From the NCBI GenBank assembly GCA_000403275.2, contig KE159598.1:1129540-1193539 (forward strand): a DNA stretch of 64,000 bases, given 5' to 3'. The position numbers and the translations under genes are program-made. The DNA comes from Lachnospiraceae bacterium 28-4 (GTDB lineage: Bacteria > Bacillota > Clostridia > Lachnospirales > Lachnospiraceae). The stretch's first letter is position 1. Every line of letters starts with the position of its first letter. This document shows, in pieces, positions 10,682 through 17,780 of the stretch. A model generated the notes under the pieces. It did not search any database, was not told where the DNA came from, and saw only the letters and a list, made by a program, of their open reading frames with translations.

Positions 10682-10852
10682 ATGCAAGATTATAATTTTA
10701 ACGAATATTTTGACCGTTTCCCGCTAGCTATGGCATATGTGCCGTGGCAGCATCTTACACAGATTTATGAGGATCTGGATGAAGCGTACTGTACCGGCAC
10801 GATCTTTCCCGAATTAACGAAACCCTTTACAGGAAGGAGATGTGTTCAATGA
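10682..10852 (+). CDS. cotJA: Spore coat-associated protein CotJA
   Basis: This 56-residue ORF reads MQDYNFNEYFDRFPLAMAYV, then PWQHLTQIYEDLDEAYCTGT and IFPELTKPF, the typical CotJA pattern. It is preceded by GAAAGGAG. CotJA is a small inner spore-coat component made in the mother cell. It is the first gene of cotJABC and overlaps cotJB by 4 bp. A CATACAGTA sequence at 10638-10646 resembles the -10 element of mother-cell sigma factors, but no well-spaced -35 could be assigned. Confidence 0.92.
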   Translation: MQDYNFNEYFDRFPLAMAYVPWQHLTQIYEDLDEAYCTGTIFPELTKPFTGRRCVQ

Positions 10853-11118
10853 GCCATAAAATGAATGTTGAGCAGGAAAATATGCTGCGAAATATAGGAA
10901 TTGTCGATTTCGTAACGGTGGAAATGACGCAATATCTGGACACCCATCCTTTCGACAGAGAAGCGATGGAATATTTTAATCATTATATGCGCATGAAAAA
11001 TCAGATGATGCGTGATTATGCCATGAAATATGGCCCGCTCTCCCTTTCCGTAGCAGATACATGCAGCAAAGAATGGAAATGGGCGCTTCAGCCTATGCCC
11101 TGGGAAGGAGGATGTTAA
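10849..11118 (+). CDS. cotJB: Spore coat protein CotJB
   Basis: The product is 89 residues from MSHKMNVEQEN, whose ATG overlaps the cotJA stop and follows AGGAAGGAG; an ATG 9 bases upstream is less well placed. The sequence TVEMTQYLDTHPFDREAMEY, then FNHYMRMKNQMMRDYAMKYG and KWALQPMPWEGGC, is diagnostic of CotJB. It is a mother-cell spore-coat component that works with CotJA and CotJC. cotJC follows after 3 bp. Confidence 0.93.
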   Translation: MSHKMNVEQENMLRNIGIVDFVTVEMTQYLDTHPFDREAMEYFNHYMRMKNQMMRDYAMKYGPLSLSVADTCSKEWKWALQPMPWEGGC

Positions 11119-11121
11119 GAT

Positions 11122-11673
11122 ATGTGGAATTATGAAAAAAGATTACAGTTTCCGGTAAAAATTACGCAGCCCAATGCAAAGCTTGCCCAGGTTATTATCA
11201 GCCAGTTTGGAGGCCCCGACGGAGAACTTGCAGCGTCTATGAGGTATCTGTCACAGCGTTATTCCATGCCTTACAATGAGGTAGCAGGACTTTTGACGGA
11301 TATCGGAACGGAAGAACTGGCGCATATGGAAATGATTTCCGCTATCGTGTATCAGCTGACAAAGGATCTTTCCATGGATGAAATCGTTGCTTCCGGCTTC
11401 GATAAATATTATGTTGATCATACACTCGCCCTCTGGCCGCAGTCGGCGGGAGGAGTTCCTTTCAACGCTTGTGTGTTCCAGTCGAAAGGGGATGCGATTA
11501 CGGATTTGACGGAGGATATGGCGGCAGAGCAAAAAGCCAGAACTACCTATGATAATATTCTTCGCCTGGTTCATGACCAAGAAGTCTGCGACCCTATCCG
11601 TTTTCTGAGGGCAAGGGAAATTGTGCATTTCCAGAGATTCGGTGAAGCAAACCGGAAAGATTGTAGTAAATGA
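11122..11673 (+). CDS. cotJC: CotJC manganese-catalase-like coat protein, C-terminus displaced by an insertion
   Basis: The frame encodes 183 residues. The ferritin-like manganese catalase fold is visible: MRYLSQRYSMPYNEVAGLL, then GTEELAHMEM and REIVHFQRFGEA supply the Glu/His metal ligands. After GEA at 11646-11648 the frame reads NRKDCSK and stops, unlike any CotJC tail. The expected tail lies 3.9 kb away at 15583-15661, in frame across an 11-bp direct repeat. Joining the two gives a 201-residue protein (606 nt including the stop). The gene is therefore interrupted by an integrated element; the truncated form may keep its metal site but lacks the last 26 native residues or so. Confidence 0.9.
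   Translation: MWNYEKRLQFPVKITQPNAKLAQVIISQFGGPDGELAASMRYLSQRYSMPYNEVAGLLTDIGTEELAHMEMISAIVYQLTKDLSMDEIVASGFDKYYVDHTLALWPQSAGGVPFNACVFQSKGDAITDLTEDMAAEQKARTTYDNILRLVHDQEVCDPIRFLRAREIVHFQRFGEANRKDCSK
11638..11648 (+). repeat. attL-like core of the cotJC element
   Basis: TTCGGTGAAGC occurs here inside cotJC and again at 15572-15582. The bases flanking the two copies differ on the element sides and match cotJC on the outer sides, as expected for attL and attR of a serine-recombinase element. The core contains a GA dinucleotide suitable for strand exchange. Confidence 0.8.
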
Positions 11674-11762
11674 AAACACAAAAAATCACTAAAACGCATA
11701 CCCACACGCCCCTCAAAGCTATGGACTTCAGCTTTCGCACCCAAAGAAAGGACAAGCCTATA

Positions 11763-11933
11763 ATGCCAGTATTCAGAGTAGAAAAAATCAAAGATTATAC
11801 GATTCTGCCGATCAATCCATACAGGTTTTATCCCCCGCTTCTTTCCATACCGAATTTATATCCGACACCTAACAAAGTTTTTATATATGCTGGGTTCTTG
11901 CTGATTTCTCTTTTCCTCCTTGGCCTCAATTAA
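11763..11933 (+). pseudogene. Fragment of a RepA_N-type replication initiator
   Basis: The frame from the ATG at 11763 begins MPVFRVEKIKDYTI, which matches the usual start of helix-turn-helix replication initiator proteins (RepA_N type) carried by Firmicutes plasmids and ICEs. After that the sequence leaves the family, reading LPINPYRFYPPLLSIPN and then a hydrophobic tail, and stops after 56 codons. It is best read as a truncated or recombined remnant. Whether the short chimeric ORF is translated is unknown. Confidence 0.5.
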
Positions 11934-11953
11934 AATTAGAAATGCTTTTCCCG

Positions 11954-12739
11954 TTAAACCTTTAAATCCAAATTTGCACCAGCCTCCGCTTCTTGTTTTG
12001 TATTTGTTTTACCATTATTGTCTTCTTTGGCTGCTTCAATAATTGTCCGAATATCTGTATTGTTCAGATAAATTATGCCCTCTTTGGAAGCCGCCAATTT
12101 TTCATTTAGAAGCTGTTCCGCTTTGTTTGGAGTTGATTTTTCTTCTATCTTTCCATCTGCGCTATCTTTTTTTACTTCTTTCTTTTCTTTTAAAGTTTCA
12201 AATAATTCTTTTTCCTTTTCAACTGCCTTTTCTTTTGTCTTTTCAAGTAGTTTCTCAGAATTTTTCTTCCTTTCTTCCCGGAGTTTATCGCTCAGTTTTA
12301 ACATACCATCATTTCTGCCCTGCATTCTGCAATGATATTTTCCGTTTTCATCAATATAACTATGCTGATATACTATCGTCCAGCCACTGGCTTTCGCCAT
12401 GCTTTCTGCCAATTTAGACATAGACTCAACGCCTTTTATCATGTCTTTCATGTCCTTCTCTTTTTCGGGGTCATTCTGCATTTTTTCCAAGAGTTTTGGA
12501 TTAACAGTCAGTGACTTTCCGTTTTGGGCTGATGAACAGGCATTTCCAACCTTAAAATCTACGCTTGGAACAAGTTTTGCTAGTCCATTTGCATAATCCG
12601 TTGTCTTTTTCCCCTTACTACTTCCCAATGTTTCTGTTGTTTTTTCTGTTTCCTTTTTCTTTGTGCTGTTCTCTGTGTCATTTTCTACTACGCTCTGCGT
12701 TGCATAGCTGCTATAATTGTTTGTAATCTCCATTGCCAT
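11954..12739 (-). CDS. DUF6033-like accessory protein of the integrated element
   Basis: The 261-residue protein starts MAMEITNNYSSYATQSVVEN after AAGGAGG. That start is typical of DUF6033-type proteins found on Clostridia integrative elements; I recognise the pattern but not a function. The N-terminal 45 residues are Ser/Thr/Lys-rich and probably disordered, residues 50-150 look globular, and residues 150-215 form a long Lys/Glu-rich coiled coil. There is no signal peptide or membrane segment. It is transcribed opposite to the recombinase, so it is an independent cargo gene within the element. Confidence 0.55.
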   Translation of the reverse strand: MAMEITNNYSSYATQSVVENDTENSTKKKETEKTTETLGSSKGKKTTDYANGLAKLVPSVDFKVGNACSSAQNGKSLTVNPKLLEKMQNDPEKEKDMKDMIKGVESMSKLAESMAKASGWTIVYQHSYIDENGKYHCRMQGRNDGMLKLSDKLREERKKNSEKLLEKTKEKAVEKEKELFETLKEKKEVKKDSADGKIEEKSTPNKAEQLLNEKLAASKEGIIYLNNTDIRTIIEAAKEDNNGKTNTKQEAEAGANLDLKV

Positions 12740-12829
12740 GATTTTTTCCTCCTTGATAATAAATTTATTTGAAATCCATTTTCATGTTACATTTATAGCA
12801 TTTTAAATAATTTCGGACAAAATTTGATC

Positions 12830-12868
12830 TTTGTTAATGTTTGTTCCATAAATTTGTTAATGTTTGTT
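12830..12868. repeat. Two iteron-like direct repeats
   Basis: The 16-mer TTTGTTAATGTTTGTT occurs at 12830-12845 and 12853-12868, a 23-bp period. With a replication-initiator fragment in the same element, this could be a vestigial iteron site or an operator. Two copies alone do not settle it. Confidence 0.45.
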
Positions 12869-13027
12869 AAAATTCTTTATCTTTGCGTTTCCCTGCCTCG
12901 TTTCGGCTGCTTCGCTTACCGCAAGATATTGCCCATGTTCTGCTTGATTGTGTCGTACTGCTTCACTTTATAAAATTTCCAAGAAACTCTGCCATTTTTT
13001 GTCTTGCGTGCATAGTAAGGGGTAATT

Positions 13028-13049
13028 TACACTATTCCCGTATAGTGTA
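13028..13049. repeat. Inverted repeat upstream of the recombinase leader
   Basis: TACACTAT (13028-13035) and ATAGTGTA (13042-13049) are perfect inverted repeats around a 6-base loop. Position and size suit an operator in front of the small ORF/recombinase unit; no T run follows, so it is not a terminator. Confidence 0.45.
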
Positions 13050-13097
13050 CTTGCCGCTTCTCATAAAATATAGAGAAACCTTCAAAGGAGAAAGTTT

Positions 13098-13313
13098 ATG
13101 CCAAAAACGGATAACGCTCCTACACCTGATACACAAATACGAGTGGAAAGCCTTTCCAATGAAGAAAAGCATTTCATGGAAGAAAGTCTTTCCATAGATA
13201 AAATGAGGCTGACTGTTACCAACATCTACCCCGCCTTTCAAAAAAAATCAGAACAGGAAACCCGACAGGAAATCGGGGCACGGCTCTATCAGATTTTCAA
13301 AAACTATGCGTAA
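13098..13313 (+). CDS. Small protein preceding the serine recombinase
   Basis: The 71-residue ORF starts MPKTDNAPTPDTQIRVESLS after AAAGGAGAAAG. It has an acidic centre and a helical C-terminal part, QETRQEIGARLYQIFKNYA. Small ORFs in this position are common before large serine recombinases in Firmicutes elements (for example tnpW-like genes) and could include a directionality factor, but I do not recognise the family. It is 83 bp upstream of the recombinase on the same strand. Confidence 0.55.
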   Translation: MPKTDNAPTPDTQIRVESLSNEEKHFMEESLSIDKMRLTVTNIYPAFQKKSEQETRQEIGARLYQIFKNYA

Positions 13314-13396
13314 ATCCCTTACAAAACAGTCATACAAACAGTATGATTTGTTTGACATTGGGTATTGCGCCTTACGTTTTGGGAGGTAGATACTAA

Positions 13397-14905
13397 ATGT
13401 ATGACGCATTGTATGCGCGACAGTCAATCGAAAAAAAAGACAGCATATCCATAGAAAGCCAGCTTGAATATTGTAGATACGAAGCCCGCGGGGAATCCTG
13501 CATCGAATATATGGACAAAGGTTTTTCAGGCAAGGACACCAACCGTCCCGGATTTGAAAAAATGATGAATGATATTCGCGCGGGCAATATAAAGCGTGTC
13601 ATTGTCTACAAACTTGACCGTATCAGCCGTTCTATTCTGGATTTTGCAAACATGATGGAGATATTTCAGAAATATCATGTGGAGTTTGTTTCTTCCACGG
13701 AAAAATTTGACACATCCACACCGATCGGCAGGGCGATGTTAAATATCTGTATCGTGTTCGCCCAACTGGAACGGGAAACCATACAAAAGCGTGTAACGGA
13801 CGCTTATTATGCAAGGTGCAAGCGCGGCTTCTACATGGGCGGACGTATCCCCTACGGCTACCGTCTGACAAACACGGTCATTGACAATATCAGCACTTCC
13901 ATGTACGAAGAAGTCCCGGAGGAAAGCGAACAGCTAAAGCTGATTTATTCCATGTATGCGGACACGGACAATTCACTTGGGGATATTGTGCGGTACTTGA
14001 ACGAACACCAGATTAAAAATCTGCGCGGCGCAAACTGGAATACCGCCCGTATCAGCGAAATGCTCCGCAATCCTGTGTATGTGCAAGCTGATATTGACGT
14101 GTATCAGTTTTTCCAAAGTCAAGGCGCTAACATCTATAACCCGGCAAGTGATTTCACGGATTATAATGCCTGCTATCTCTACAAAGGTACGGTTTCCACT
14201 TCAAGAAAGCAATGTGACCTTTCTGACAAGGAAATTGTGCTTGCGCCGCATAAGGGGTTTATCCCCTCTAAGACATGGTTAGCCTGCCGCATACGGTGTC
14301 TGAACAACCGGCAGTCCACAAAGACCTGCAAACCGAAAAATTCATGGCTTGTAGGCAAAGTAAAATGTGGAAAGTGCGGTTATGCGCTGACAATCCGCAA
14401 GGCAAAAACAAAATGGGGACGTTACTTTGTTTGCAACCAATCGGGAAGCCGTGGAAGCAACTGCACAGGGGCGGGCTGTACGGTTTATGCAGACGTTTTG
14501 GAAGAATATATGCTTGGCGCAATTAAAGAAAGACTGTCGGAGTTTCAAAACCTCTCCTGTCTATCTGAAACAGGAGAAGAACAAAAGAATATGACGAAAA
14601 AAGTCCGTCTGACACAGATTGATGAAGAAATCGAAGAACTTCTCTCCAAAGTGTCCGGGGCAAGCGGCGTTCTGATGAAGTACATAGACGAAAAAGTATC
14701 AGAACTGGACGCGGAACAAAAGGCTTTGCAGGAAGAAATCGTTACGGCAAATGTCACAGACACAGAGGGCAGATTGAAGCAGATAACCAATCATGTGAAA
14801 ACATGGGAAATGCTCTCTTTCGAGGACAGACAGGCGGTAGTCGATACCCTTGTCAAGGTTATTCGGATTGCAGACGGAAACATTAAAATCACTTGGAACA
14901 TTTAA
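13397..14905 (+). CDS. Large serine site-specific recombinase
   Basis: The 502-residue protein begins MYDALYARQSIEKKDSISIE with the catalytic serine at about residue 10. The resolvase domain continues with YKLDRISRSILDFANMM and a LERETIQKRV helix; the recombinase domain follows (GGRIPYGYRL, then GDIVRYLNEHQIKNLRGANW), then a zinc ribbon CGKCGYALTIRK with a paired Cys region CNQSGSRGSNC, and a coiled coil near residues 400-460. This is the complete domain set of TndX/TnpX-like integrases, so it should catalyse integration and excision between the flanking cores. GGAGG lies 10 bases before the ATG. It reads toward the right end of the element. Confidence 0.93.
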   Translation: MYDALYARQSIEKKDSISIESQLEYCRYEARGESCIEYMDKGFSGKDTNRPGFEKMMNDIRAGNIKRVIVYKLDRISRSILDFANMMEIFQKYHVEFVSSTEKFDTSTPIGRAMLNICIVFAQLERETIQKRVTDAYYARCKRGFYMGGRIPYGYRLTNTVIDNISTSMYEEVPEESEQLKLIYSMYADTDNSLGDIVRYLNEHQIKNLRGANWNTARISEMLRNPVYVQADIDVYQFFQSQGANIYNPASDFTDYNACYLYKGTVSTSRKQCDLSDKEIVLAPHKGFIPSKTWLACRIRCLNNRQSTKTCKPKNSWLVGKVKCGKCGYALTIRKAKTKWGRYFVCNQSGSRGSNCTGAGCTVYADVLEEYMLGAIKERLSEFQNLSCLSETGEEQKNMTKKVRLTQIDEEIEELLSKVSGASGVLMKYIDEKVSELDAEQKALQEEIVTANVTDTEGRLKQITNHVKTWEMLSFEDRQAVVDTLVKVIRIADGNIKITWNI

Positions 14906-15039
14906 CGATTAAGCATGAAAGACTAAGCCACACAGTTTAGAGGAAAATTTAATAAAAATCTGTTGATAAGCCAATACTAAATACCGTATAATAATGAAGA
15001 AGAACGTTTCATAGAAAATAGTCGAAGGGAAGTGATACT

Positions 15040-15210
15040 ATGGCACCTGCAGCACAGGCAATCAGAAATCAAGAAGTCCTAAATACTGAATATTCCGAAA
15101 AAGCAGCCATAGGCGCATTATATGATGAACTCTCCAAAGGAATAAATAGTATGAAAAAAGGCGATGTTTATACGATTGATGAAGCATGGGAGGAAATTGA
15201 CAAAATATAA
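15040..15210 (+). CDS. Antitoxin of a type II toxin-antitoxin pair
   Basis: The 56-residue ORF starts MAPAAQAIRNQEVLNTEYSE after GAAGGGAAG and ends DEAWEEIDKI. Size, acidity and position fit a RelB/Phd-like antitoxin; family assignment is by context. Its stop TAA shares a base with the toxin ATG (TAATG), so translation is coupled. It lies close to the right end of the cotJC element and would stabilise it. Confidence 0.65.
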   Translation: MAPAAQAIRNQEVLNTEYSEKAAIGALYDELSKGINSMKKGDVYTIDEAWEEIDKI

Positions 15211-15551
15211 TGCCGGATAAACCTAAAAAATACAAAATTGTGATTTCCAAAGATGCCCTCTCGGATATTAAGTCAACAAAAAAGTATATTCTCGACACAT
15301 TCAAATATCGTGAATATGCGGAAAACTTTTCAAAGAAGATAAAGAAGGCTATCAAGGAGCTGGATTCCTTCCCCAAAGGCTATGAAGCTACGGGATATGT
15401 AATTGAGGGATTGAGCATTTATTTCAAGCCTTACGGTACATATTTAATCTTCTTTGTTGTGGAGGATTCTACGATTACGGTAATCCGGGTATTGAAAGAC
15501 CGCATGTATTGGCAGTCGATTATAAAGAAAATGCAGAAAATCAACAGATAG
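15210..15551 (+). CDS. RelE/ParE family toxin
   Basis: The 113-residue basic protein reads YKIVISKDALSDIKSTKKYI near its start, then KKIKKAIKELDSFPKGYEA and YGTYLIFFVVEDSTITVIRV LKDRMYW, the RelE/ParE fold with the characteristic final V-x-R-V-L pattern. Such toxins either cleave mRNA on the ribosome (RelE) or poison gyrase (ParE); the sequence alone does not decide. It overlaps the antitoxin gene by one base and ends 20 bp before the right core repeat. Confidence 0.8.
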   Translation: MPDKPKKYKIVISKDALSDIKSTKKYILDTFKYREYAENFSKKIKKAIKELDSFPKGYEATGYVIEGLSIYFKPYGTYLIFFVVEDSTITVIRVLKDRMYWQSIIKKMQKINR

Positions 15552-15571
15552 ATTTACTTCAATCCTCCCGT

Positions 15572-15582
15572 TTCGGTGAAGC
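15572..15582 (+). repeat. attR-like core of the cotJC element
   Basis: This is the second copy of TTCGGTGAAGC. Sequence to its right continues the cotJC reading frame, ALRIVQDKLDSKNFYAFNPE, while sequence to its left belongs to the element. Confidence 0.8.
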
Positions 15583-15661
15583 CTTGCGCATCGTACAGGA
15601 TAAACTAGATTCCAAGAATTTCTATGCGTTCAATCCTGAGTTTGACAGATGCAAAAAATAA
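15583..15661 (+). pseudogene. cotJC: Displaced 3' end of cotJC
   Basis: Read in the frame set by the upstream core, this stretch encodes LRIVQDKLDSKNFYAFNPEF and DRCKK followed by TAA, the expected C-terminal tail of a CotJC manganese-catalase-like protein. It has no start codon of its own. Joined to 11122-11648 it gives an uninterrupted frame of 202 codons including the stop. Confidence 0.85.
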
Positions 15662-15726: not shown

Positions 15727-16503
15727 TTAATATTGTTCGTCATATATGAACTCCTGATAATCCTCAATATCCTTATGAATGCTGATTCCATCCCGGATCC
15801 ATGCCGTTCTTTCTCTTATGATCTTAGCAGGGATACCGGCAAGACAACAGTTTGGAGGAAATTTCTTTTTACAAACAAATGAATTGGCTCCTATAGTTGA
15901 TCCGGCACCTATCTCTACGCCGTTCAATAACGTTGCCCTCATTCCTACCCATACATGCTCTCCACAAATAACATCTCTCTCCGCATTATCATCCAAATGT
16001 TCCATTGAGTTCAGATCAATCATATTATGGCTATTGCCGGCACGCATAAAAACAGAATACGATACCATACAGTCCTTTCCTAAAGTTATCTTGGCATCAA
16101 AAGATGCAACAAGCGTACATTGTCTTTGCATAGTGCAATTCGATTCAATATGTACACTTCCTCCGCATGAACACCTGACCTTTATAAAGGAATCAAATTT
16201 GCAATCATGGTCTATTAGAATACTCCCATTTGTGCTTGAGATAGTTACATCTTTGCCAAATTTAACCCGCTCTCCTATTTTTACAAACGATTTTCCCGCT
16301 GAAGCAACTGTGGTTTCTCCGCCAAGTTCCTTCGTTTTAATCTCTATTACACCACCGCTTCTTAATTGAACATTCATGGGACAAATATTTTCTGTCACAA
16401 GTCTATTGCCATATAAATCCTGATAATTTTTTGTGCCATCCAATGCAATTATTCTTTCCGGATACCAAAAATCCACAAATTCTATATATTCCATTTCATC
16501 TAG
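15727..16503 (-). pseudogene. Hexapeptide-repeat acyltransferase, 3' part of an IS-split gene
   Basis: This part encodes a left-handed beta-helix acyltransferase: hexapeptide coils such as KFGKDVTISSTNGSILIDHD, ITLGKDCMVSYSVFM, then HVWVGMRATLLNGVEIGAG and IPAKII, typical of O-acetyltransferases that modify surface sugars. A local ATG at 16494 could allow separate translation (255 residues). It is really the C-terminal portion of a 353-residue gene whose N-terminal Rossmann-like part lies at 17781-18065. Removing the IS630 copy with one TA restores the frame ...DEVINQLVLDEMEYIEFVD... exactly. Confidence 0.85.
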
Positions 16504-16505
16504 TA

Positions 16506-17780
16506 TAATATCTTTTTAATAGCTCGACTATATTTAAGACCTGTGCTATAATGTCTTTATAAAAATTTTGGAGGACATTTTCATGGGCAAAAAAGCATCA
16601 TCAATCGAACTTAGCAATGAAGAAAGAGAATATCTGGAACTTCAAACTCGTGCCAGAACAATTCAAGCTCAAACCGTTACAAGAGCGCGAATTTTATTAT
16701 TACGTGCGGATGCCATGTCAATAGATGCGATTGCTGATAAAGTAGGTCTCAACCGCTGCAGCGTCATGCTCTGCCTTAAAAAGTTTAAAGAAGGAGGCAT
16801 TGAAAACGCACTCTTTGATGCTCCCGGCCGTGGAAGAAATGCTGAGATTACAGACGAAGAAAAAGCCTGGATCATTAACACCGCGTGCCAGAAGCCAGTT
16901 GATTTTGGATATGCTGCCGAAACCTGGACTTATGCAGGGCTGACCTCACATATTAATAAAACTGCTGAAGCAGCTGGATACACAAGACTTTCCACCATTC
17001 ATAAAAGTACAGTAAATACGATTCTTGACGAGGCAGACATAAAACCACATAAAATAACTTATTATTGTGAGAACAGAGATCCTGATTTTGATTCCAAAAT
17101 GCATAATGTACTGCTTGTGTATAAGCAGCTTGAAATGCAGTTTAACGAATCCGGAGAACTTATTGTATCTGATGATTCACCCGTACATGTGCTGTCTTAT
17201 GATGAAAAGCCTGGAATACAGGCTGTTGCAACAACATCGGATGATTTAATGCCGGACGAAAGGCATCAGACCATCAGTAGGGATTACGAATACAAACGTT
17301 TAGGTACTCTTTCATTATTAGCTGCAATCGATCTCCAAACAGGAGAAGCGATTCCGCTTGTAAGAGACAGGCACAGCAGCAGGGAATACATAGAATTTTT
17401 AAAGCTGTTAGACGACAAGTACCAAAAGGGAGACAAAATCCGCATAGTACTCGATAATCTTAAAGTTCATACATCGGAGGCAACCAGAAAATACCTGGCA
17501 ACCGTACCAGGAAGATTCGAATTTGTATTCACTCCCAAACATGGATCATGGCTTAATATGGTTGAAGGTTTCTTCAGCAAGATGACTCGTCAGATGCTTA
17601 AAGGCATCCGTGTCAAATCTAAGGAGGAACTTACTAATCGCATCTACAACTATTTTGCAGAAATAAACGAAGAACCGATTGTGTTCCACTGGAAATATAA
17701 ACTTGATGACATTGATGTATCGGAAGAAATCATTGTTGATACTCTGCCTGTCAAAAAGTCGATTTAATTAAAAGATGAAA
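16506..17780 (+). mobile_element. IS630-family insertion sequence
   Basis: The 1,275-bp element is flanked by TA dinucleotides (16504-16505 and 17781-17782), the IS630/Tc1 target duplication. Its imperfect terminal inverted repeats share CTTTT near the ends and TCGACT inside. It encodes one DDE transposase that fills most of its length. Both flanks belong to one acyltransferase gene, which confirms the boundaries independently. The element is likely intact and a recent arrival. Confidence 0.88.
16583..17767 (+). CDS. IS630-family DDE transposase
   Basis: The 394-residue protein starts at MGKKASSIELSNEEREYLEL after TTGGAGG; an upstream TTG at 16568 overlaps that ribosome site and is unlikely. 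The N-terminal helix-turn-helix region DAIADKVGLNRCSVMLCLKK is followed by the DDE domain, with VLSYDEKPGIQA (first Asp), IRIVLDNLKVHTSE (second Asp) and WLNMVEGFFSKMTRQML (Glu). It cuts and pastes the surrounding IS at TA sites. The frame is intact. Confidence 0.93.
   Translation: MGKKASSIELSNEEREYLELQTRARTIQAQTVTRARILLLRADAMSIDAIADKVGLNRCSVMLCLKKFKEGGIENALFDAPGRGRNAEITDEEKAWIINTACQKPVDFGYAAETWTYAGLTSHINKTAEAAGYTRLSTIHKSTVNTILDEADIKPHKITYYCENRDPDFDSKMHNVLLVYKQLEMQFNESGELIVSDDSPVHVLSYDEKPGIQAVATTSDDLMPDERHQTISRDYEYKRLGTLSLLAAIDLQTGEAIPLVRDRHSSREYIEFLKLLDDKYQKGDKIRIVLDNLKVHTSEATRKYLATVPGRFEFVFTPKHGSWLNMVEGFFSKMTRQMLKGIRVKSKEELTNRIYNYFAEINEEPIVFHWKYKLDDIDVSEEIIVDTLPVKKSI

Follow-up and report, generated by a model that had tools for sequence, protein, structure and literature searches.

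The window analyzed here, 64,000 nucleotides of Lachnospiraceae bacterium 28-4 (contig KE159598.1, positions 1,129,540 to 1,193,539), carries the spore-coat gene cotJC in two parts, on either side of a 3,934-bp element that encodes a large serine recombinase. The locus raises the question of whether the insertion has destroyed cotJC or whether the gene is put together again by excision when the host sporulates. From sequence comparison, we favor, with a probability of roughly three in four, a site-specific mobile element that is removed in the sporulating mother cell to restore the gene.

The split gene, its empty site and the element

The cotJ genes and the parts of cotJC are arranged as follows; G004 is the closest genome of the same genus.

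10682..10852, plus strand: cotJA (Pfam CotJA, 62 bits)
10840..11118, plus strand: cotJB (Pfam CotJB, 91 bits)
11122..11648, plus strand: cotJC 5' part, core included (Pfam Mn_catalase, 166 bits; protein 99% identical to that of the intact G004 gene)
11638..11648, plus strand: left core TTCGGTGAAGC (attL); the same core, varying slightly, in relatives
15572..15582, plus strand: right core TTCGGTGAAGC (attR), the second copy of the 11-mer
15584..15661, plus strand: cotJC 3' part, 25 codons plus stop (a tail almost identical to that of the intact G004 gene, which ends in CKN, not CKK)

The gene is split after codon 176, and both flanks of the element are copies of TTCGGTGAAGC, confirming the original prediction that this 11-mer occurs at both junctions, 3,934 bp apart. 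The divergence it had placed after GEA at 11648 was found there: the native frame ends with the core, and the 25 bases by which the frame continues, up to a stop at 11673, are all element sequence. The native tail, LRIVQDKLDSKNFYAFNPEFDRCKK, lies in frame at 15584-15658 with its stop at 15659-15661. Its resumption in frame had been foreseen correctly, but the proposed first base, 15583, is the last base of a GCC codon and the tail starts one base later.

The predicted join, a CotJC of 201 residues, was to be checked against a relative lacking the element, and G004 agreed with it. This genome carries cotJC as a single uninterrupted open reading frame (ORF) of 201 codons that reads ...FGEALRIVQDKLDSKNFYAFNPEFD... 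and differs from the joined window halves at two residues. Since the whole G004 protein reads as the join predicts, the split in the window is not a matter of chance. A match to cotJC was recovered in 14 of 16 genomes of the genus: eight are split, five are whole and one (G012) has frame breaks in both copies. The five whole genes contradict the possibility that CotJC homologues naturally end after RFGEA. Among the eight split genomes, the middle piece was not found in G003 and G005, and the G008 contig stops before the tail. G001 has a whole cotJC on one contig and a degenerate recombinase on a different one. At L195 (G103) and L080 (G107), a second, split copy lies beside a complete cotJC or beside the terminal part of one. 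The split cotJC is the one Mn-catalase-family gene in the window's genome.

The element itself contains five ORFs and the following features.

11653..11670, minus strand: left inverted arm of the predicted attP, matching the right arm at 15 of 18 bases
11954..12739, minus strand: cargo DUF6033 protein, 261 aa (Pfam DUF6033, 26 bits against a cut-off of 25)
13042..13069, plus strand: sigmaE-like promoter ATA-N17-CATAAAAT, a conserved block in a mostly unalignable upstream region
13098..13313, plus strand: orf71, 71 aa, candidate recombination directionality factor (RDF), conserved directly 5' of the recombinase
13397..14905, plus strand: large serine recombinase, 502 aa (Pfam Resolvase, Recombinase and Zn_ribbon_recom; PHROG integrase, 319 bits)
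15040..15210, plus strand: RelB/ParD-like antitoxin, a weak match (NCBIfam, 19.6 bits, below the cut-off of 60)
15210..15551, plus strand: ParE-family toxin (Pfam ParE_toxin, 43 bits)
15553..15570, plus strand: right inverted arm of the predicted attP, TTTACTTCAATCCTCCCG, kept at attR in relatives

The recombinase, claimed earlier to be intact, is an open frame with Resolvase, Recombinase and zinc-ribbon domains. The attP of a serine integrase usually consists of a core between inverted-repeat arms, and on the circular form of the element the two arms would surround the core as such an inverted repeat. When two or fewer mismatches were allowed, the arm pattern occurred three times in the genome, at both element ends and at one other place. 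The small gene orf71 found no match in Pfam, NCBIfam, PHROGs or solved structures (best structure E 0.67); 12 sequences share a conserved core of about 36 residues, and small ORFs that resemble it by eye precede related recombinases. We infer that orf71 is the RDF.

We evaluated a prophage origin and rejected it: relatives of the recombinase were absent from viral contigs in a pattern scan, and the PHROGs search recovered no phage structural or packaging family among the five ORFs. In that search the recombinase matched integrase, invertase and transposase families, ParE matched one family of unknown function and the others had no match. Conjugation genes were likewise absent among the five ORFs (Pfam). 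At other positions, the window's genome encodes two diverged relatives of the DUF6033 cargo protein (59% and 49%), plus one weaker match.

Recurrence, mobility and conservation

A recombinase scan of 84,980 species genomes yielded 88 relatives, of which the best 80 were retained; these represent 79 distinct loci, and most of the titles name Lachnospiraceae or further gut Clostridia. The insertion occupies the same position in cotJC, hereafter site III, in 74 of the 79, and a cotJC tail with an open frame is present in 68 (69 when the window is counted). At six loci (L064, L075, L087, L092, L109 and L119) the cotJC 5' half adjoins the element end and the tail is unscored: the contig ends first, except at L109, where nothing similar enough follows. 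L120, with a truncated recombinase, was not placed. Two loci from assemblies titled Spirochaetales (L094) and Mailhella (L095) encode recombinases 98.7-100% identical to that of the Lachnoclostridium isolate L091, reflecting either cross-phylum transfer or misbinned contigs.

Complete elements (n = 33, including the window's and the remnant at L117; the tally omits L072) measure 2,563-9,094 bp, and 30 of them carry a relative of orf71. The remaining cargo is variable. Among 20 of the larger cargo ORFs, chosen from 13 elements, Pfam identified transporters (MATE among them), regulators of the LysR type, an acyl-CoA dehydrogenase, a P-type ATPase, EAL/GGDEF proteins, an EF-G-like protein and two transposases; families for conjugation or phage structure were not among the matches. 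Anti-phage defence was considered as a cargo function and set aside, as PADLOC returned one weak match only for 10 cargo proteins of other elements.

Divergence of the recombinase showed almost no correlation with that of cotJC (Spearman 0.09, 465 pairs from 31 loci). The input comprised 81 loci (the window, L031 and the 79), with a usable 5' half in 33, 3' half in 69, recombinase in 73 and all three in 26. The 7-kb elements of L050 and L054 are 99.9% identical over their full length, while the compared portion of their cotJC 5' halves is saturated at silent sites. These two results indicate that the element moves between genomes and finds the same bases again. On a single contig of G009, a 55.9-kb element occupies the same cotJC site (2495938-2551869; L031, L216-L218). 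Its recombinase is related to the window's (56%), and it encodes the type IV secretion system (T4SS) coupling protein, TrbL, PrgI and TraG families; judged by this gene content, it is an integrative and conjugative element (ICE). It also encodes a 2,239-aa DarB-like/methyltransferase-like protein.

We examined the cotJC halves for signs of decay. Stop codons were found in none of 33 5' halves and none of 69 3' halves, the halves having been located by similarity, so that badly decayed ones may escape. At the 69 tail-bearing loci the recombinase is fully open in 63 and open to the contig edge in four; the other two are L107, with a deletion, and L117, with a broken frame. At L117 (5878-11654) a complete cotJC lies directly left of an element remnant in which the recombinase is broken and the cotJC tail is present a second time, an arrangement that would fit repair of the gene at one of the junctions.

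The trio L104, L106 and L108 probably inherited the element in place, given their downstream flanks (94.8-96.1% identical), their recombinases (91.8-93.0%) and the collinearity of the elements at 92-95% in two of the three pairs. In these loci all seven variable columns of the 21-codon tail are silent, and the 5' half has 49 silent columns compared to four in codons with a residue change. When L085 and L086 were added, whose recombinases roughly track their flanks and whose cargo differs, the tails showed 11 silent and no replacement changes; the neutral probability of this is about 2e-8 at 0.198 silent sites, treating columns as independent and leaving transition bias uncorrected.

cotJC as a gene in pieces

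In relatives, cotJC is also cut at three further sites, with other recombinases.

Site 0, cotJC codon ~32, core TACGGTGGTC: a single genome in which the junctions were read, with one recombinase seen beside the junction
Site I, cotJC codons ~61-70, core GGTA: recombinases diverse, ~40-97% identical to each other
Site II, cotJC codons 133-136, core GCAGCAGA: recombinases mostly ~60-90% identical to each other and ~23% to the window's

The pieces read join in frame in each case. The cotJC of L047 was considered as a pseudogene and this was rejected, as its three in-frame stops lie 5' of the junction and the locus represents another split, at codon ~32.

We surveyed 120 genomes of the family, one per genus, and found cotJC in 75. 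Both sides of a split at site 0, I or II were recovered in 25 genomes; with G000 and G044, whose cotJC is cut at site III, the gene is in pieces in at least 27 of the 75 cotJC-bearing genera sampled. This is a lower bound because site III is invisible to the survey query; five genomes that showed a split from one side only were left out of the count. In 10 of the 25 a single contig carries both pieces, which always share a strand and follow the order of the gene; in the others the pieces lie on separate draft contigs.

Several sites can be occupied at once. In G110 (contig C46; L185, L186) sites I, II and III are all filled, so that one cotJC is in four pieces with three different recombinases, and in Eubacterium sp. 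14-2 (G111) the site-I halves lie about 72 kb apart and a site-III element is present as well. The mother-cell regulator gene spoIIID is split in two genomes of the window's genus, G013 (L205, 3931-8000) and G005 (L206, 5518-10604), by elements of 3.8-4.8 kb whose serine recombinases are 84% identical to each other and have a small ORF upstream.

These results lead us to lean, if only slightly, toward a wider proposal, that cotJC of Lachnospiraceae is a gene in pieces with four integration sites (codons ~32, 64, 135 and 177), from which up to three stacked elements would all be removed in the mother cell to give one coat catalase. Sites I-III would each have their own recombinases, a small upstream gene and mostly a mother-cell-type promoter of shared design; the pattern ATAnnGTAC-N11-CATA was seen at all three. 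With loss limited to a dying cell, cotJC, and spoIIID in two genomes, could serve as a safe harbor for small cargo islands and even for a conjugative element.

Proposed mother-cell excision and its alternatives

In the mechanism we propose, the serine recombinase would integrate the element at cotJC codons 173-177. In the sporulating mother cell, sigmaE or a similar mother-cell signal would switch on orf71, which would act as the directionality factor, and the recombinase and orf71 would together recombine attL with attR. The circle would leave, restoring the in-frame 201-codon cotJC in a terminal cell, and the spore chromosome would retain the element. The insertion would then be nearly silent, allowing the element to carry cargo and to spread.

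The control step was proposed from the sequence upstream of orf71. Relatives are mostly unalignable there except for the block ATAGTGTACTTGC-N7-CATAAAAT, about 28 bases before the start codon. The block resembles conserved blocks (ATA-N16-CATA) upstream of spoIIID and spoIVA in the genus, a comparison in which the L177 and L163 sequences start wrongly and do not align. Both genes are sigmaE-dependent in model spore-formers, and we read the block, by resemblance only, as a putative sigmaE-type promoter. After removal of duplicates and of loci with fewer than 400 upstream bases, ATA-N16/17-CATA occurred in the 450 bp preceding 59 of 61 site-III recombinases, compared to 5.5 expected from shuffles, the 61 regions being homologous and so not independent. 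Elsewhere it preceded four of four and none of two in the site-II subfamilies, three of four at site I, one of two at spoIIID and none of one for the ICE, and one of eight related recombinases without an assigned site (0.9 expected). The finer pattern ATANNGTACN11CATA had two matches in the window's genome and four in the control.

Recurrence at the same bases, conserved tails, open recombinases and a small partner gene preceded by a sigmaE-like promoter favor a sporulation-linked intervening element, and the proposal originally made for this locus is supported to that extent. The mobility of the element would also suit one that merely uses a conserved but dispensable cotJC as its attB, leaving the gene broken and excising by accident or for transfer. 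Near-identical 7-kb elements in hosts with silent-saturated cotJC and the uncorrelated divergence fit this explanation; so do the 45 of 120 family genomes without a cotJC match, which suggest that the gene is dispensable in some lineages, and the additional cotJC homologue of some split genomes. We consider it unlikely, as both halves are open, changes in the trio are almost all silent with the element present in all three, recombinases are intact in split loci, a sigmaE-like motif is present and in-register pieces occur at other sites in 25 further genera.

Even less probable is that the near-3' insertion shortens CotJC to 183 residues but leaves it functional, making excision unnecessary. 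The cut does retain 176 of 201 codons and presumably falls after the Mn-ligand segments; the lost tail, however, is recognizable and open in 69 loci with silent-only change in the trio, and elements at codons ~32, 64 and 135 could not be explained in this manner. Excision might instead restore cotJC by vegetative switching (phase variation), free of sporulation control. Activity of the element between genomes and the reading of the promoter by likeness leave room for this, but we regard it as very improbable, considering the resemblance of the block before orf71 to those upstream of spoIIID and spoIVA and that cotJC is a sporulation gene.

Besides the shared ancestry of the 61 upstream regions, several observations weigh against excision in the mother cell as the explanation. 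The right end of the element is joined to sequence other than cotJC at L045, L062, L094 and L095, and the truncated CotJC may keep some function. A second long cotJC homologue is present in five of the 25 split genomes (G048, G118, G184, G195 and G198) and in G044, so the split gene is not always the sole copy. In the trio, silent divergence is somewhat lower for the recombinase (0.18-0.25) than for cotJC (0.29-0.40), which makes vertical descent likely rather than proven, and the mobility of the element means that much of the tail conservation may predate insertion. The strict motif had eight matches in the window's genome compared to four in the control, leaving sigmaE not validated, and the first ORF downstream of the other matches is no obvious sporulation gene. 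Its spacing before orf71 is 17, compared to 16 before spoIIID and spoIVA, and a stricter sigmaE-type motif was found upstream of cotJA in neither the window nor any of 22 relatives.

Known examples of programmed DNA removal in the mother cell are few, come mainly from Bacillus and clostridia and are for the most part prophage-like. The cotJC element lies inside the frame of a sporulation gene, between short repeats that restore the frame, and encodes its own large serine recombinase, features that place it structurally with the skin-, vfbin- and gin-type intervening elements. XisF of the fdxN element in heterocyst-forming cyanobacteria is the best NCBIfam relative of the recombinase, but its 137 bits are well below the cut-off of 375, so the recombinase is not a member of that family. 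Host, target and element all differ in the fdxN system, which likewise relies on excision in a terminal cell.

Like skin in sigK of B. subtilis and C. difficile (PMC5025042), the cotJC element would combine a large serine recombinase, a small RDF and precise excision that rebuilds a mother-cell gene; unlike skin, it targets a coat gene, is 3.9 kb long, has no recognized phage genes and carries an orf71 without a family match. For skin-Cd of C. difficile (CD1231/CD1234), the same text gives the RDF CD1234 as 72 aa and controlled by sigmaE/SpoIIID, and the recombinase as not mother-cell-specific. The gin element in gerE of B. cereus ATCC10987 resembles the cotJC element in being non-phage with a short core (9 bp in gin) and in its serine recombinase GirC with GirX (PMC5595907); it is 28.6 kb long with three recombinases, whereas the cotJC elements have one, are compact (2.6-9.1 kb) and move between genomes. 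SP-beta in spsM, vfbin in spoVFB, vrin in spoVR and yin in yabG likewise lie inside sporulation genes and, according to PMC4191935 and PMC10747680, are prophages or prophage-like, unlike the cotJC element; yin is reported there as unique to one strain, compared to dozens of species genomes for the cotJC element. No description of an element in cotJC, of its stacking or of its spread was recognized in the literature searched, parts of which were accessible; Abe et al. 2013 (vfbin) lay outside that search and could name one. Four aspects appear to be new: cotJC as the target, a compact architecture of non-phage type, movement from genome to genome, and several elements stacked within one gene.

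If mother-cell excision is correct, DNA removal of this kind would be a common genome architecture of gut Lachnospiraceae, and excision confined to the soma would be a general low-cost strategy for mobile elements in a host gene, open to non-phage cargo islands as well as to a conjugative element. Automatic annotation would call such genes broken, and predictions of spore formation for gut bacteria may err.

Downstream of cotJC, the window continues with two genes labelled by eye, an acetyltransferase-like gene on the minus strand (15727-16494) and a 399-aa transposase-like ORF (16568-17767).

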